Shown here: piece after piece, positions 176 to 59,813 of the stretch
Layout: the number at the start of each line of letters is the position of its first letter
Position numbering within the stretch: position 1 is the stretch's first letter
NCBI GenBank assembly: GCA_947564735.1
Contig: CANOEC010000001.1
Location: 62,001-126,000, forward strand
Source: an uncultured Lachnospiraceae bacterium
GTDB taxonomy: Bacteria > Bacillota > Clostridia > Lachnospirales > Lachnospiraceae
DNA: 64,000 nt
Reading direction: 5' to 3'
The notes under the pieces: generated by a model
What the model saw: the letters and a program-made list of their open reading frames with translations, nothing else
Told to the model about the DNA's origin: nothing
The model's database searches: none
Made by a program: the position numbers and the translations under genes

Positions 176-3100
176 CTATTGTAACAACTGCAGAATGGAC
201 CGGGTGCTCTGGTTCGCCTGCGTCAACATGCTTGTTCCTGCCTGCATCAGTATGTTGTTGATGGAATATTCCATCATCAAATCCGCTACATCCGCATCCC
301 GGATTAGTGACTCACTCGCCTGCGTGTTCTCAATAATATTGTTATTATTATTGATGGTATGCTCCAGCCTGTTCTGCATCGCGCCGTAAGTACTTCTTTT
401 TGCACTTAACAGTTTAATCGCTTCCTTGATGCGCCGGACTGCTTTCTCGGCATATTTTGGTCTGCTCAGCGTAATGGAATTGATTTTAATTGCACAGGAA
501 CCGATGCTTACACGGGGAATTTCTATATTATCCCCAGACTCTCCACTGACAAGGATGCTAAGCGGTTTGCGGGACTCCCTTCCGTTCTCATTATAAAAAA
601 TAATCTTTCTCGCGCTCCCGCCGACATCCGTTATGGTATGGGAGCCGATAACCTTGTGCACAATTTTCAGCACACCATTTTCTACGGATGCATTCAGAGG
701 CGCCTTATTACCATTATCGTCTCCGTTCGCAAACCTGTCATTCAAAAGGTTGACAAAATCCTCTGTCGTATAGGAAATGCCTTCCGAAAATGTATACTGG
801 TATGGTTTGGAATCCGCCGAAAGAGTCAGCACATTTTCACCGGGCGGGAACGTAATACCCTCTGTCAAATCTTTTGTTCCAGTAATATAGGTCGCCTGCG
901 GTTCCGTGGTTGTTTTATAGAAGACAAAGCTTGCGGCGCTTCCCCGCACGCCGTCAAGGATGTATTCTCCATCATCAAGCTCTACACCCGGTTTTTTATG
1001 TACAAGAATCTGCAGGGCTGTCTTATCATTGGAATTCGCAACATTTGTTTCCCGCAAACCGATTCCAACTTCTATGATAAAGTCATTGAGTCCTTCTTCT
1101 TGAAACTTTTTCTGTATTTCATTCTGCAAAACAGTCGTAAGCTGACTCCCCGTGTAACTGCCTGCCGGAATTTTTATATCCATCGGAATTTCATAGTCAC
1201 TCGCAATTGGCGACCTGCTCTTAAAAGCAAAATCAAAAGTTAGCATATCATTTGCATCGGCAACAATTTCAACAGGATCCCCCGTTAAATCTTTACGCCC
1301 GATGATAAATGCTTCCGTATAATCGGAATCCACATAACTCCCATTCTGCTTATAATTGGAAGCCACAACATCCTTTGTATCCTTTGACAGCAAAACTCCG
1401 TCATGGAAACTTCCTGACGCCCTCAAATCAGTACTGCCTGCAGAAAGCTGGATTTTATCCTCTATGATTGCAACCTCAACTTTATCTTTCAAGTCGGGAT
1501 TTCCATTAATTGCACTTTGTATGGCATTCTTTAATGCATCTCTGGTTCCATAACTGCCGGATGCAATGTCCACCGAAACATCTTTGCCGCCGACATGTAT
1601 AGTTAACACATTATTGTTGTTGTTAATCGTTGTATTTTCGGCGACCGGCATATAAGTTGTTAAAGTCGTTTTCCCTGCCTTGTAAATTGTAGGCTCCCTT
1701 TGCTCCACTCCGATAATATTTGCCCATGCAGAAGAAGTGGTGGTGTAATTCTGGAGATAGAGATAATAAGAATCAGAAAGCGGCGGCGATGTAAAAATCA
1801 AATTACCTCCGCTATATGACACCTTCATATTCCTTAACGTATCATTGCTGCCTGCTTTAAGTTTAGTGTTTATTTCATCAACTAATTCCTGCATACTGCC
1901 ATAAGTTCTGGCTGTCAGTGCAATTGAGCCTGTACCGTTTACGCTTGAAGAAAATGCCAGTGTACAGCCATCCTTGCCAATCGTTATGGAACCTGACTGC
2001 TTATCAGCGGGAATCGACACCGTAAGTTGCGCACTTGTCTTTTTCGTGGCAGACGAACCCTGTATATATTCTATCTTTCCTACTGATGACGAATAGCTAA
2101 AACTCTTCACACGAGTGCCATCAAAAAGCTGTTTATAGGTATCATTCTTGATAGCCGGCTTAATTTCTTTAATATCATTATTCAGTGCTGCAATTTGAAG
2201 CTGGTTTGATGAGTTATTAAACTTGACTTTATCTTTTATGTCTGGATAATCTGTTGCTAATTTATTATTCAGCGCTGTAACCAGACTGCCAACTCCATTA
2301 TAGGTTCCTCCTATACCGTTCAGAGTATATGTCTTTCCGTCCACATCAAATGCCAAAGAGGCATCGCCTGACAGAGTAATTTTACCAGTATGAGTTGTTA
2401 ATCCGGTAATATGGGCATTCTGACCCGTTGTCCTAGACATAAGATAATTTGTAACCCGAAACAAAGAATCATATGCATTTGCATAAACAGAACCCGGACT
2501 CGTATCAAACTCCAAATGACTTTTACTGCCATATAATGTACTTGATAAAACTAATCTGTACGGATAATAGGTGCTGGGAACATTCTCTGCTTTGATATCC
2601 ATGTTTGTAAATAATCCATTCAATACATCCTTTAGGCTTCTGGTTGTATAGTTTCCCGGCGGAATAGTTATTTCCGTATAGTCACTCGCCATATTCAGCT
2701 TAAAGCGTAAGACATTATTTACCCCGGACACAATATTAATAGGGGCTGTTCTTGGGTAATCAGAATAATTATAATAATATGCCTCGCCAGTAATTTTGGC
2801 ATTCTCCCCTCTGGAATCGCCATACAGCACATTATCATAAAATACCGAAGAGTATATGGAAGTTGTCGGTTCATACTTGAACATATTACCTTTTAATCCA
2901 TTGATATTTACGCCCTTTCCACCGGTAATCTGGATATAGGAATCTCCATATTCTTTAGCTGACACACCAACTGCATTAGGATGCTTTGCGAGTTCACCAT
3001 TAATAAAATCTATCATCTTAGCTCGCGAATACTCTCCCGCTGGTATTGTCATTTTAATATATTCCGTGCCATTTGCACTTTCAATATAAAAACCCAGTTC

Positions 3101-3940
3101 ATCATTATGTCCCTTATGGATTTTAAAAGGATCCTCTATCGAAAACACACTCGTCCCCAGCAAATCCCCCGACGAACTGCCGCCATACAAATCATAAATC
3201 AGATAGGCAAGAGAACCTTCCACCGACTGAATCTTCGTCGGAAGCCCCTCTGCACTCTCAAAGTTCAGATTACAATAGCCTTTATCCGTATATTCAAAGA
3301 CAAATCCCGGATTCGGCGGCGTCATAGCCTCCAGAGCGTCGTCTATTTCATCTACCAGTTCCTGTGTTGTATACACGCCTGCCGGAACCGTAATCACATA
3401 TTCATTCGGGACATAGCTGTTCGGCAGATTAATCTTTAATTCATTTGCCGCCGCAGGAACCGTATGAAGCTGGTTATCGTTCCATCTCCTGCTCCCTTCA
3501 ATCTGGTAATAGGAAGGCTCATGCTCCTCAAATACTCTCTGTTCATTAAATTCCGTATGGCTGTTAATGCGGTCAATTTCTGTGCGAAGCTGGTCAAACT
3601 CCGCATTTAACGATGCACGGTCACTCTCTGTAAGGGTGCCGTTAAGCGCTTTAATTGACAACTCATTCATACGCTGTAAAATGGCATGACCTTCATCCAT
3701 AGCGCCATCGGCGACCTGTACAAAAGCGACTCCATCCTCCGCATTGGCTGTGCCCTGCGTAAGTCCACGAATCTGCCTGCGCATCTTTTCTGAGATTGCA
3801 AGACCCGCCGCATCATCCGCCGCCCTGTTAATCTTATATCCGGAAGAAAGTTTTTCTGTTGTTTTTACATTTTTCCCGGTATTCATATTCAGCTGCCGGT
3901 TTGCATTCTGCGCCACCAGATTATGTTGTATGAATATCAT
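176..3940 (-). CDS. Giant flagellin with eight internal repeats
   Basis: Flagellar filament protein, about 1254 aa against the usual 270-550. The start is the ATG at 3940 (MIFIQHNL), because GGGAGG lies 6 bases before it; an in-frame ATG at 3958 has no such site. Residues to ~140 are the conserved D0/D1 half (LSSGYKINRAADDAAGLAI, then the NAEDG and ILQRMNEL segments). The last ~90 residues are the matching C-terminal half, ending in QAGTSMLTQANQ...LLQ. Between them are eight units of ~113-138 residues. Most carry an IxIPAGxYTTxxLxxxIN-like core (for example ITVPAGVYTTQELVDEID), resembling flagellin insertion (Flagellin_IN) motifs. I see no HExxH, so it is not a flagellinolysin. A sigma-28 promoter lies upstream. 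Flagellin identity is certain; the role of the insert is unknown. Confidence 0.93.
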   Translation of the reverse strand: MIFIQHNLVAQNANRQLNMNTGKNVKTTEKLSSGYKINRAADDAAGLAISEKMRRQIRGLTQGTANAEDGVAFVQVADGAMDEGHAILQRMNELSIKALNGTLTESDRASLNAEFDQLRTEIDRINSHTEFNEQRVFEEHEPSYYQIEGSRRWNDNQLHTVPAAANELKINLPNSYVPNEYVITVPAGVYTTQELVDEIDDALEAMTPPNPGFVFEYTDKGYCNLNFESAEGLPTKIQSVEGSLAYLIYDLYGGSSSGDLLGTSVFSIEDPFKIHKGHNDELGFYIESANGTEYIKMTIPAGEYSRAKMIDFINGELAKHPNAVGVSAKEYGDSYIQITGGKGVNINGLKGNMFKYEPTTSIYSSVFYDNVLYGDSRGENAKITGEAYYYNYSDYPRTAPINIVSGVNNVLRFKLNMASDYTEITIPPGNYTTRSLKDVLNGLFTNMDIKAENVPSTYYPYRLVLSSTLYGSKSHLEFDTSPGSVYANAYDSLFRVTNYLMSRTTGQNAHITGLTTHTGKITLSGDASLAFDVDGKTYTLNGIGGTYNGVGSLVTALNNKLATDYPDIKDKVKFNNSSNQLQIAALNNDIKEIKPAIKNDTYKQLFDGTRVKSFSYSSSVGKIEYIQGSSATKKTSAQLTVSIPADKQSGSITIGKDGCTLAFSSSVNGTGSIALTARTYGSMQELVDEINTKLKAGSNDTLRNMKVSYSGGNLIFTSPPLSDSYYLYLQNYTTTSSAWANIIGVEQREPTIYKAGKTTLTTYMPVAENTTINNNNNVLTIHVGGKDVSVDIASGSYGTRDALKNAIQSAINGNPDLKDKVEVAIIEDKIQLSAGSTDLRASGSFHDGVLLSKDTKDVVASNYKQNGSYVDSDYTEAFIIGRKDLTGDPVEIVADANDMLTFDFAFKSRSPIASDYEIPMDIKIPAGSYTGSQLTTVLQNEIQKKFQEEGLNDFIIEVGIGLRETNVANSNDKTALQILVHKKPGVELDDGEYILDGVRGSAASFVFYKTTTEPQATYITGTKDLTEGITFPPGENVLTLSADSKPYQYTFSEGISYTTEDFVNLLNDRFANGDDNGNKAPLNASVENGVLKIVHKVIGSHTITDVGGSARKIIFYNENGRESRKPLSILVSGESGDNIEIPRVSIGSCAIKINSITLSRPKYAEKAVRRIKEAIKLLSAKRSTYGAMQNRLEHTINNNNNIIENTQASESLIRDADVADLMMEYSINNILMQAGTSMLTQANQSTRSILQLLQ

Positions 3941-3974
3941 AATCGCCCTCCCGTTCATTATGTTACTGACATCT

Positions 3975-4002
3975 ATATCGGAAACCGCTTCTTGAATATT
4001 TA
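3975..4002 (-). promoter_or_regulatory. Sigma-28 (FliA/SigD) promoter of the flagellin gene
   Basis: On the minus strand TAAA (3999-4002) is followed after 16 bases by TCCGATAT (3975-3982). This matches 7 of 8 positions of the motility sigma factor -10 element GCCGATAT at the accepted spacing. It lies about 35 bases before the flagellin ATG, as expected for a class-3 flagellar gene. Confidence 0.75.
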
Positions 4003-6098: not shown

Positions 6099-9000
6099 TT
6101 AATAGTGCATAAAATCTTTTTCCCGGAGTATAATCATATCTTCTTCGTCATATCTCTTTGCCAGCAGGATATCCATGAAATGCTTTGGCGTCTTCTTATT
6201 GGCATAATTAATTGCCTCATCGACCAGCTCTCTTACCTCTGCCATACTTACCTCATGGTCGCTCGTCTGCCTGTCCGCAATTCTCGTATGAAGCGCCAAG
6301 ATTCCAAATTCATCAATGGAATACTCTAAGTCCTCTGCATACTGCTTCGCATAAGCCACCAACGCCTCGTTATCTAACGGTTCAATATCCACCCGCAGGT
6401 TAATATTGCGGGTCAATGACACATTATCCGCAAGAAGCTGATTAATATTCTGCTTCTTGTCAATCATAAGAAGCAATAACCCCATATTATCCTTATCCAG
6501 CACTTTAGAAATCTTAGCAGCTGTAGCGGGTTTTAACCGCGACGCTTTCTCAATTATCAGCGCGCCGTTGTCCAGCCTTCCGAATGTCTCTGCGACATCT
6601 TTCCTGTTTAACACATTGGCAGAAATCTTCGCCACCTTACCAGAAAAATTATCATCATTAAGCTGCATTTCCTTAATCAACGCCTTAGCCAGTGTCAGGG
6701 TCGTAATCTCTTCCTCCCCGGTAATGATTACGTTGCCGGTACACGATGCAAGACTCATATTATCCAGAACATGCACAAGCTGTTTCTTGGATTTCCGATG
6801 ATGGACAAACTGTCCAAAGAGCTCCATTTCCTCCGGCGTCAGTTCCCGGTCATGCATATTTTCTTCCGGCGCTTCAACATTCTGCTTTGCCTGCTCATGC
6901 GCTTCTTTATCTGCATGACGAACCGCTTTCTCTGTTTCTGCAGGCGCTACGGTTTCCTCTACCGCCTCTGCCATTCCTTCCTCAGATACGGTTTCTTCTA
7001 TCTCTTCGTCCTCAACATCCTCGTCGTCTTCCGTCTCAGCCAGCTCTCTCTCAAACTCTTTCACCGCAGCAGCCACATACTCTTCGACTTCCGGCTCCCG
7101 CTGCTTCTTTTCCTCCTCCGGCAGAACGACCTTCTTGATTGACGACTTCTTACCGGAATCCTTCATGATTGCGGCTATAAAGGCTCTCTCCAGTTCTTCC
7201 AGAAGACCGTTCTTGGTCGCCTCATCAAAATCTGCAAAAAGATTTCCTGTATGGTCAAGAATCCGCTGTTTGACCTCTTCCATACGCTTCTGCTTATTGG
7301 TCTTCTTCATCTCTTCCCATTCAGCCATGATATCTTCAATGCTGAGCTGTCCGGTAATCTGTTTCTCAACGCGTTCCGCTTCCGGAACAACGAGACTAAT
7401 CTGACCATCATATTCCTGCGATAAAATATTGTCAAACTTGGATGGTTTCGCGTTAAGCGGTGTAAGAACCCCCGTTCTTGCACCCGGAACCCTGAGTTCA
7501 TCGGAAGCTTCTACGGACCGTTGCGGCTGTGCCGCTTCCTGCTGCATCTGCTCCAATATCTGCTTCGCGTCAAAAGCTGCCGTATCTTCTTTTACAATCT
7601 GCGCACTGACTTCCCGCAAATCGTCTGTATCCATACTTAATTTTTTCTTCGGCTTCCTGCTTGGCTCTTCTTTCACATCACTTTTAGCCGCCTTTTTATC
7701 CGCCTTACCCGGAAAATCAATGACTGTCTTCTCTTTCAGCTGTTCTTCTACTTCTTCCGGCTTGGGCATCTCAACCGTCTCTTCCAAAAGCGGTGCAATC
7801 AATGTCTCGGCAACGGATCTCCTGTCATCGTCTTCATCTTCTTCGTCGTCTTCCTCCTCGTCCGAAGGAACATCCTCATCCGACATTTCTTCCTCTATCA
7901 TTTCTTCTTCCGCAGCCTCATCCTCTGGAAGCTCGTCTTCTACAAGCTCTTCCTCTGGAATTTCGTCCTCCGCAATCTCATCCTCCGGAAATTCGTCTTC
8001 TACAACCTCATCCTCCGGAAGCTCGTCTTCTACAGCCTCATCCTCCGAAAGCTCGTCTTCTACAGCATCGTCCTCCGGAAGCTCGTCCTCTACAGACTCT
8101 TCCTCTGCAATCTCTTCTTCGTCCTCTCCGTAAGCTTCCTCATCTTCTTCAGAGACTTCCTCATCCTCATAAAGCGTCTCTGTTTCGGTAACCGTCTCTT
8201 CCATCGGCTCCTCTTCCGCCTCGGAAAACGCTTTTTCCATCTCGGATGATTCACCTTTCGCCTCAGCTTCATCCTCTTCGTCGCTCAGGATTTCCTTCAT
8301 GCTCTCCGCCAAAGCCATCTGCAGATTAATCGTATTGTACTGACCCATATCAATGGTCTTTACTTCCGGAAGCTCCATCGTCGGCACAGTGGGTATCTCA
8401 TCTTCGTCCTCCGGCTCCTCGTCAGCATGTCTGACCTTACCCACTGTCCGGGTATCGTCCGCTACATTGTCATAATCATCATCTTCCTCCGGCTGCGATT
8501 CCTCCGTCGGATCTTCTCCCGCCTTGCGCATCCGGATCCATTCATCATACTTCGCCTGCTGTTCTGCATTCAACGGCGTATGCAGCGCTTTTAACTCCAG
8601 TGCTTTGATAATATAACTGCCTTCACCGAACATGATGAACATTTCATCACATTCCTCCACGCACTGGGTCGCCAATCCGATTCTGTGATACAGATATGCA
8701 AGCTCATATGCCCATTTTTCACGATAATCGTGCTTTTTAAACTCCTTTAATACTTCTATTCTCTCTTCCAGACTGACATCCTGCGCCTCATAAAGACGGT
8801 ATTGCAAAATATATCTTCCGGTATCCTTCGGCGCAATCTGCACAAACTCTTTGTAGTATTCTATCGCCTGTACATATTCCTCCATCTTAATCGAAAGCTC
8901 ACATAAAGAATACACGATCGATCTTGCCGTCGGGTGCTTCTCATAAGCCAGAAGCAGGATGTCCTTACTCTCCCGGTATCTTCTGTTAATTTTATATAAA

Positions 9001-9152
9001 TCGCTGATTGTACAAAGCATCATGACGCTCCTGACCCGGCGCCAGTCAATTGTATCCGCTATTTTTACAGCTTCCGCGAACTCTCCTTCTGCAATTAATG
9101 CCTTGATTTCATCAGCCCGTATCTGATATTCGTACTTATCCAAGGTGCTCAC
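6099..9152 (-). CDS. TPR protein with acidic repeats and AAA-like C-terminus
   Basis: A 1017-aa protein in three parts. Residues 1-~190 form TPR-like helical hairpins. About 210-450 is extremely acidic and includes six tandem decapeptides of the type VEDELPEDEA at ~353-412. A mixed charged linker follows. The last ~240 residues (from LVHVLDNM) look like an AAA-type ATPase fold: ITGEEEITTLTLAKAL sits where a P-loop would be but lacks the GxxxxGK[ST] consensus, so ATP binding is doubtful. No signal peptide or membrane segment is visible, so it is probably cytosolic. The start is GTG at 9152 or, with better spacing to GAGGTG, TTG at 9143. It lies 27 bases upstream of glgB and may be cotranscribed with it. 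I know no function. Confidence 0.85.
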   Translation of the reverse strand: MSTLDKYEYQIRADEIKALIAEGEFAEAVKIADTIDWRRVRSVMMLCTISDLYKINRRYRESKDILLLAYEKHPTARSIVYSLCELSIKMEEYVQAIEYYKEFVQIAPKDTGRYILQYRLYEAQDVSLEERIEVLKEFKKHDYREKWAYELAYLYHRIGLATQCVEECDEMFIMFGEGSYIIKALELKALHTPLNAEQQAKYDEWIRMRKAGEDPTEESQPEEDDDYDNVADDTRTVGKVRHADEEPEDEDEIPTVPTMELPEVKTIDMGQYNTINLQMALAESMKEILSDEEDEAEAKGESSEMEKAFSEAEEEPMEETVTETETLYEDEEVSEEDEEAYGEDEEEIAEEESVEDELPEDDAVEDELSEDEAVEDELPEDEVVEDEFPEDEIAEDEIPEEELVEDELPEDEAAEEEMIEEEMSDEDVPSDEEEDDEEDEDDDRRSVAETLIAPLLEETVEMPKPEEVEEQLKEKTVIDFPGKADKKAAKSDVKEEPSRKPKKKLSMDTDDLREVSAQIVKEDTAAFDAKQILEQMQQEAAQPQRSVEASDELRVPGARTGVLTPLNAKPSKFDNILSQEYDGQISLVVPEAERVEKQITGQLSIEDIMAEWEEMKKTNKQKRMEEVKQRILDHTGNLFADFDEATKNGLLEELERAFIAAIMKDSGKKSSIKKVVLPEEEKKQREPEVEEYVAAAVKEFERELAETEDDEDVEDEEIEETVSEEGMAEAVEETVAPAETEKAVRHADKEAHEQAKQNVEAPEENMHDRELTPEEMELFGQFVHHRKSKKQLVHVLDNMSLASCTGNVIITGEEEITTLTLAKALIKEMQLNDDNFSGKVAKISANVLNRKDVAETFGRLDNGALIIEKASRLKPATAAKISKVLDKDNMGLLLLMIDKKQNINQLLADNVSLTRNINLRVDIEPLDNEALVAYAKQYAEDLEYSIDEFGILALHTRIADRQTSDHEVSMAEVRELVDEAINYANKKTPKHFMDILLAKRYDEEDMIILREKDFMHY
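7917..8096 (-). repeat. Six tandem 30-base units coding acidic decapeptides
   Basis: Six in-frame 30-nt units encode VEDELPEDDA, VEDELSEDEA, VEDELPEDEV, VEDEFPEDEI, AEDEIPEEEL and VEDELPEDEA. Units differ mostly by single substitutions, so they are an expanded coding repeat. Confidence 0.85.
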
Positions 9153-34910: not shown

Positions 34911-35218
34911 ATGATGTTGGGGTCAAATAGAACTTTTAGAAAATACTACCGGCAGATTGCACAAATTGCTCACGCAGTTGTTTTGTGAAGGAGATTGTGA
35001 TTTTCTTCATATTCCGCTCAGTATCCAGCATTTTGCGGACACGGATGTCCGCAAAAGCCCGAAACGAGCCCGGATGGCTCATTAAGGGCGGATGCGTCTG
35101 TCAGTCAATGTCTTACCGGAATAGGTTAGAAAATCCAATCGACGAAACCACACAAGAGAGCAATTTGTGCAATCTGCCATCTCAATTTCCCAAAAGTTCA
35201 TTTTGACCCCAACATCAT
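34911..35218. mobile_element. 308-bp MITE-like element with 61-bp inverted ends
   Basis: The ends 34911-34971 and 35158-35218 are inverted copies, equal in length and identical at about 51 of 61 positions. They begin ATGATGTTGGGGTCAAA and end CAGATTGCACAAATTGCTC. The interior carries a perfect 11-bp hairpin TTTTGCGGACA/TGTCCGCAAAA (35031-35056) and a GAGCC/GGCTC hairpin near 35068-35082, and no credible coding frame. A non-autonomous transposon or a structured RNA locus would both fit. A clear target-site duplication cannot be delimited. Confidence 0.65.
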
Positions 35219-59456: not shown

Positions 59457-59813
59457 AAACCTGTAACCTGCGGATGAGCGAAATTACCCTGCCATCTTTG
59501 ATGGTTCGTGACAACGCCTCAATCAGCTTATTCTGGCATACTGTGTCGAAGAACTTTTCCAAATCCATGTCCGCCACATACATGCAGCCTTCATTTACAT
59601 TCTTTTGGAACTGTTTTAGGACTTTAATTTGTTTGGCGGCCTTATCCTTACCCATAACCTAATGTAATTTCTGTCCGTCAGACCAGAGATTTGCCACCAC
59701 CTTCCTTCAGATTCCACCTCACGATGGACACCCTTGGTTTTGACTGTATCCTTCCCACTACTAGCGCGGATTAGGAACTTTCATCCATTAGCGACATGCG
59801 CCGCAAGGCGCAC
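59440..59813 (-). mobile_element. Truncated group II intron with reverse-transcriptase fragment
   Basis: The minus strand begins GTGCGCC at 59813, fitting the GUGYG 5' end of group II introns, followed by an intron-like leader. An RT frame covers 59419-59655 (NEGCMYVADMDLEKFFDTV, LSRTIKDGRVISLI). It stops before the YADD core and the 3' domains, where ATPase sequence takes over. It cannot splice or move by itself. Confidence 0.7.

Follow-up and report, generated by a model that had tools for sequence, protein, structure and literature searches.

A giant flagellin gene with a repeated insert

We analysed a 64,000-nucleotide window from an uncultured Lachnospiraceae bacterium of the gut (assembly GCA_947564735.1, contig CANOEC010000001.1, positions 62,001 to 126,000), which carries near its start a gene for a giant flagellin with a repetitive central part. 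The gene (176-3940, reverse strand) is a single open frame of 1,254 codons plus a stop, and its translation begins MIFIQHNLVAQN. The product is more than twice the usual size of a flagellin and about 1,000 residues separate its two conserved ends. With more than 1,000 amino acids and a large central insert, it is a giant flagellin in the sense of Thomson et al. 2018. An initial annotation, made from the DNA letters, had described the flagellin ends as intact. This is what we found: Pfam Flagellin_N matches the N end (E = 2.6e-38, 131.6 bits against a cut-off of 26.6) and Flagellin_C the C end (E = 1.1e-20, 74.2 bits against a cut-off of 23). These matches correspond to a D0/D1 N-terminal part (residues 1-143; 3512-3940, reverse strand) and a D1/D0 C-terminal part (residues 1161-1254; 179-460, reverse strand). 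Across the roughly 1,000 residues between them, no Pfam model exceeded its cut-off. On this protein the full-length NCBIfam flagellin models all stayed below their own cut-offs (best 206.8 bits), and TIGR02550 scored lower than these (82.2 bits against a cut-off of 127.2). By its ends, the product thus appears to be a true filament flagellin, and it would assemble into the filament.

We prefer the ATG at 3940 (MIFIQHN...) as the start codon, and give residue numbers from it. The sequence GGGAGGG, read as its ribosome-binding site (3946-3952, reverse strand), lies five bases upstream. The initial annotation had counted residues from an ATG at 3958, six codons before, which is the poorer start.

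The insert can be divided into eight units of 98-139 residues, all on the reverse strand: U1 (residues 159-265; 3146-3466), U2 (266-397; 2750-3145), U3 (398-516; 2393-2749), U4 (517-643; 2012-2392), U5 (644-765; 1646-2011), U6 (766-886; 1283-1645), U7 (887-1025; 866-1282) and U8 (1026-1123; 572-865). U5 is the centre of the array, a place occupied by three or four units in the longer relatives. The cores of the units lie at residues 185, 299, 426, 543, 675, 792, 924 and 1051. In the earlier numbering these are 191, 305, 432, 549, 681, 798, 930 and 1057, i.e. 1-5 residues off the eight positions first listed. A shared core exists, as had been noticed, but it is looser than the IxIPAGxYTTxxLxxxIN-like form first given: it reads roughly [V/I]PxGxY[T/S]...L...IN, and the strict pattern [IVL]x[IVL][PA]xGxY[TS] fits three of the eight units.

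The eight units are homologous and the repeats are real. We compared unit profiles built from eight orthologues with hhalign, using reversed profiles as controls. The probability was at least 90 in 16 of the 28 unit pairs and at least 50 in 22, against a maximum of 25.3 in 56 reversed controls; a separate run again placed 16 of the pairs at 90 or above, its highest control being 40.4. Each unit had at least one partner with a probability above 91, and the six pairs under 50 mostly involve U4 or U8. Profiles from which one unit had been left out scored the omitted unit of the window's protein at 29-50 bits in all eight cases. The best of 300 shuffles reached 5-11.5 bits in each case, and for none of the eight units did any of the 300 score as well as the unit itself. 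Such profiles also recognised the omitted position, all eight times, in the 15 eight-unit proteins among the relatives described below. An all-unit profile finds eight units in each of its eight eight-unit source proteins, which is circular by itself, and no units in the other seven flagellins that the genome encodes, where it gave either no match or E 0.46 at best. The pairwise comparisons and the leave-one-out profiles together bear out the relatedness of the eight segments that had first been noticed in the sequence.

Tandem duplication of an insertion domain, the origin initially suggested, is also supported, with the correction that the duplication is old: the end units match the same-numbered units across species. 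The other units of the window's protein are only 18-26% identical to U3. This divergence is relevant to the possibility that the array is an artefact of assembly or of repeat collapse, which would be a concern in a genome assembled in 102 contigs. Units so diverged could hardly be confused by an assembler, and the same eight units occur in the same order in 15 separate contigs. The relatives refute this explanation, and we give it practically no weight.

Relatives, unit number and kinship of the unit

The unit profile matched 22 of the 78 genomes of the genus and 15 of the 397 genomes of the family, the window's own being counted in both. Three of these 15, with E between 6e-4 and 9e-4, are proteins other than giant flagellins: two are FliD-like by eye and one is a short lipoprotein-like frame. 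Giant flagellins are thus present in 12 of the 397 family genomes, three of the 12 lying within the window's genus. Three named relatives are from uncultured Lachnospiraceae. We compared 32 giant flagellins from several genera, 16 of a short and 16 of a long class. The short class has open frames of 1,248-1,306 codons (15 distinct proteins, L118 and L046 being the same contig), and the long class of 1,520-1,876, another frame of 1,909 having been seen besides. Every protein of the short class has eight units, one of them (L109) with a weak additional match ahead of U1. Proteins of the long class have 10-12 unit matches each, which we read as 11 units in most and 10 in L115. The weak twelfth match in four of them falls in a spacer, and a gap of about 240-250 residues in L044, L125 and L126 is probably one unit too diverged to detect.

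We matched the units of the long class to position-specific profiles. In all 16 proteins the profiles of U1, U2 and U3 give the best matches to the first three units, and those of U6, U7 and U8 to the last three. For the fourth unit U4 is the best match in 11 of the 16, and the intervening units are mostly U5- or U6-like. Since the end units are placed alike in all the longer relatives and the extra ones fall between them, the two classes differ, by these profile matches, in the middle of the array. On the best tree of the D0/D1 parts the class switched at least twice, while the well-supported branches force only one switch, in a tree whose bootstrap had not settled and from which L117, with its N end in another frame, was left out.

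Some genes of the family deserve separate mention. One long-class gene (L040:5146-10230, genome G006) has a single TAG that splits its frame into 712 and 981 codons, and the frame of its near relative L041 is open. Two genomes have two giant flagellins apiece, G884 (L123 and L124) and G007 (L037 and L020). The proteins of the latter pair are 92% identical at the N end and 41-46% in U4-U6; one of the genes lies on a contig of 4.6 kb and may be a contaminant.

Direct searches with 32 units gave weak matches only in Pfam (best E 0.011; no PF07196, the Flagellin_IN family, at E 0.1) and in PHROGs (best E 0.0032), and nothing significant in profile searches of the PDB (best E 0.07 and 0.3). For the whole giant flagellin Pfam does not list PF07196 at E 10 or better, and no match to it was found at E 0.001 across the window's genome. 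Kinship with Flagellin_IN, against which the initial annotation had suggested a profile search, is thus not visible in a plain Pfam search, but it emerges from profile-profile comparison. A profile of 64 units matched one of 27 Pfam-called Flagellin_IN domains (30 rows were fetched; one in a wrong frame and two empty ones were removed) with a probability of 95.5 (E 1.4e-8), the reversed controls reaching 1.2 and 1.6. The link is remote, because singly only U3 is clear (93), followed by U5 (70) and by U4 and U6 (53), with U1, U2, U7 and U8 all below 10.

The unit was also found, by profile search, in 34 of 398 genomes of the phylum, the window's own included. We opened the nine best-scoring of the 33 other matching genomes and checked eight of the carriers with Pfam. 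Five of the nine are FliD-like (four confirmed by Pfam) and three are flagellins, in one of which (L070) Flagellin_N alone was seen in the frame. The ninth (L073), which has Flagellin_N and, below its cut-off, Flagellin_C, looks like FlgL in our own reading. Several of these outside carriers have two or three copies of the unit. In L073, a Pfam Flagellin_IN match (residues 508-539) is nested within the unit match (474-564). A profile of 21 outside domains, themselves chosen by the unit profile, matched the units at a probability of 98.95, against 41 for the reversed control, and Flagellin_IN at 92.0, against 0.6. Given the profile matches to Flagellin_IN and the occurrence in FliD, FlgL-like and flagellin proteins, the unit is most likely a long form of a Flagellin_IN type domain that has been multiplied here. 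It resembles the Flagellin_IN domain of flagellins and FliD at the level of profiles, and differs from it in giving no direct Pfam match in the window's protein, in its length (the Pfam model has 55 positions) and in forming arrays of eight or more.

We rejected a second candidate relative, the adenovirus penton base (Pfam Adeno_Penton_B), which matches around the IPAGSYT core of U7 (1052-1210, reverse strand) with E 2.6e-5 and 23.4 bits against a cut-off of 25. It was found in two of 32 units at E 0.016 or worse, and the flagellar kin are better supported; we read the match as chance or convergence.

These searches also bear on what the units might do. Regular arrays of a single domain on surface proteins are typical of adhesins. 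The units could then be adhesive or carbohydrate-binding modules that tie the flagellum to mucus or plant fibre and are multiplied for avidity, and the origin of the three named relatives in uncultured Lachnospiraceae would suit such a role. However, no Pfam family of binding modules and no solved structure matched the units significantly, and the presence of the domain in FliD, a FlgL-like protein and other flagellins points to a structural filler. We think an adhesive function unlikely.

Conservation along the array and a proposed arm

Among the 15 distinct eight-unit proteins (L118 was excluded from the counts as a duplicate of L046), mean identity from U1 to U8 is 0.63, 0.48, 0.37, 0.33, 0.29, 0.35, 0.46 and 0.55, and it falls with distance from the nearer end of the array (Spearman -0.98). 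The two central units, U4 and U5, which we place at a tip below, are both less identical than the two end units, U1 and U8, in 105 of 105 protein pairs. The D0/D1 parts have an identity of 0.56-0.61, and U1 and U8 are therefore about as conserved as the filament core. In 14 proteins of the longer class the gradient is similar (Spearman -0.84).

We then compared synonymous divergence (dS) along the gene in the seven pairs whose N ends exceed 80% identity. In the closest pair, L035 and L121, the N end, U1 and the C end are 91-94% identical with dS of 0.20-0.28, and U7 and U8 are 82-87% identical with dS of 0.19-0.30. U2-U6 are only 45-67% identical, with dS of 0.59-0.88. The ratio of non-synonymous to synonymous divergence (dN/dS) is about 0.13-0.34 in the N end, U1, U7, U8 and the C end, and about 0.7 in U4/U5. 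Such a jump of dS within one gene suggests that its central part was exchanged, probably by recombination. The jump is clear in this pair and visible in L020/L036.

It is well established, and set out in PMC6248924, that the flagellin chain leaves the filament core and returns to it, the midpoint of the sequence being the most peripheral. On this out-and-back topology, the symmetric gradient and the difference in copy number at the centre would put U1 and U8 at the base and U4 and U5 at the tip of an arm that grows and varies at its tip. We consider it likely that D2/D3 have been replaced in this flagellin by eight Flagellin_IN-related domains forming such an arm, conserved at its base but extendable and quick to change at its tip; the fold, the surface position and the function of the array are predictions from sequence. 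That the array would decorate the filament surface, as the initial annotation proposed, is a prediction from the topology of flagellins and agrees with the conservation gradient. D0/D1 would pack in the filament core as in an ordinary flagellin. The chain would go out through U1-U4 and return through U5-U8, U1 and U8 lying next to the core, and each subunit carrying the array would bear a long arm. Lengthening and diversification would occur at the tip, where extra units enter mid-sequence and the central units evolve fastest, probably aided by recombination. The outermost surface, where phages, antibodies, mucus or other surfaces make contact, would thus be variable atop a conserved stalk. 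The filament would be thick or spiny if the protein assembles alone, and a normal filament with spines if it is mixed in. The former is to be expected because the giant flagellins of two marine Oceanospirillales (Bermanella marisrubri and Oleibacter marinus), proteins of more than 1,000 amino acids with a duplicated domain, are described as forming filaments at least 30 nm wide (PMC6248924).

A mechanical role was proposed for those marine filaments in the same paper, and the array studied here may likewise be mainly mechanical: it would thicken, stiffen or shield the filament, and the variability of its centre would reflect relaxed constraint at the periphery, with no selection for a changing surface. 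This accords with the absence from the protein of HExxH, the enzyme motif searched for, and of significant Pfam domains from the units, and with a dN/dS at the tip that stays under 1 in the closest pair. On the other hand, the raised dS of the central units in that pair suggests exchange of the tip, beyond relaxed substitution, and with seven other flagellin-like genes in the genome the giant flagellin need not form the whole filament. A mainly mechanical array is possible, in our judgement, if somewhat doubtful.

Several observations weigh against a layered, variable arm. The gradient by itself is no proof of layering, because the centre of any flagellin is hypervariable. It is less regular in the longer class, where unit 11 falls under unit 10 and the minimum is at unit 5, not 6. 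The dS jump is weaker in L037/L020 and L037/L036, and the three pairs formed by the window's protein, L045 and L119, whose dS is saturated, do not show it. The central units (27-46% identity) may also be partly misaligned, which would inflate dS. Finally, codon adaptation of the giant flagellin gene is moderate: its value is 0.634, that of the best-adapted flagellin of the genome is 0.774, and of the seven other flagellins four are higher and three lower. The medians are 0.761 for 20 ribosomal-operon frames and 0.597 for 27 window genes.

Expression, genomic setting and known giant flagellins

Upstream of the gene lies a putative promoter of the type recognised by sigma-D, the flagellar sigma factor (3975-4002, reverse strand). 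It matches the consensus TAAA-N17-CCGATAT exactly and begins 62 bases ahead of the start codon. Chance alone would produce the bare pattern TAAA-N13-17-SCGATA about 1.7 times per window, so the evidence for the promoter is its placement. With at most one mismatch, the pattern occurs within 300 bases upstream of 12 of the 32 giant flagellins (one of these loci being the duplicate contig L118/L046) against 2% in shuffled sequences. True sites may have been missed, because the simple rule used to assign start codons clearly misplaced several of them. The genome (4.52 Mb) has nine Flagellin_N matches: the giant gene, seven frames of 263-651 codons (one cut by a contig end) and a weaker ninth (48 bits). 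The promoter-like sequence and the codon adaptation given above suggest that the giant flagellin is expressed, but probably not as the main subunit. Moderate codon adaptation in a genome with seven further flagellin-like genes suggests that the protein is made in smaller amounts than the main flagellin, or in particular circumstances. The same codon adaptation could be expected of a silent or decaying gene, as could the broken frame of the G006 relative and the N-terminal part in another frame in L117. We judge decay very improbable: 31 of the 32 relatives are open from the N- to the C-terminal part, and the window's gene has intact ends, a ribosome-binding site and a promoter-like sequence, with the two ends of the protein strongly constrained.

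Downstream of the gene, beyond the window, follow a 129-amino-acid frame, a 651-amino-acid flagellin, a 1,026-amino-acid frame and a 384-amino-acid flagellin. The 651-amino-acid protein (G000:C1:59730-61685; L009:15730-17685), second downstream of the giant gene, is of the flagellinolysin type, with a HEMTH motif and 150.7 bits to the flagellinolysin model (NCBIfam NF033876), under its cut-off of 205. Another flagellin of the genome with a HExxH insert (L013:5768-7642) passes with 235.4. Adjacency to such genes is not a general rule: we found a HExxH flagellin near the window's gene, L119 and L114 only, and at no other giant-flagellin locus within the flanks covered, some of which are short. 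In Clostridium haemolyticum, flagellinolysin is reported as a second subunit of a mixed filament (PMC5595980). As described there, flagellinolysin is like our protein a flagellin with a large central insert. That insert is a metallopeptidase, whereas no HExxH motif was found in the giant flagellin of the window, which scores 45.1 bits with NF033876. The initial annotation was therefore right to set it apart from the proteolytic type.

Three further features of the window were recorded. A TwoAYGGAY RNA motif (Rfam RF01731, 106 bits; 34983-35150, forward strand) lies immediately upstream of an ATPase frame that we take to be MoxR-like. A match of 183 bases to the Group II intron D1-D4-3 (Rfam RF02001) is at 59546-59728 (reverse strand). 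A 1,017-amino-acid frame (6099-9152, reverse strand) has a long acidic stretch of EDE-type repeats in mid-protein.

Giant flagellins are already known, one from Firmicutes included, as is a domain in two copies in the marine ones. A figure legend of PMC6248924 names a giant flagellin from Eubacterium plexicaudatum, a member of the Firmicutes. The Oceanospirillales proteins, as presented in that paper, resemble ours in size, in keeping the D0/D1 ends, in having a central insert with a duplicated domain and in growing by insertion between duplicated parts. They differ in having two DE regions and one DX insert, against eight to eleven smaller units here, and in that the species reportedly have no other flagellin, against seven other flagellin-like genes in the window's genome. 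An array of eight or eleven units appeared in no title or abstract that we found in the open-licence literature.

For gut bacteria, flagellins are of major importance both as antigens and as receptors for phages. On sequence evidence alone, this family hints at the place where a giant flagellin grows: the end units of the array stay fixed, and it is in the middle that unit number and sequence vary. A domain that filament proteins have in common with FliD, the cap protein, and with a FlgL-like protein seems to serve as a building block for expansion. The fit of tandem domains into the out-and-back fold, a question raised in PMC6248924, is here directly testable with one filament structure. More tentatively, and with a chance we put a little short of even, the array may be a modular, extendable spike: an ancient Flagellin_IN-like array in which new modules and alleles enter only at the tip, leaving the assembly core untouched. 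If so, this would answer the published question on tandem domains, a family of gut bacteria could lengthen and re-coat the surface of its filament, and recognition by phages and antibodies would differ between strains at the tip.

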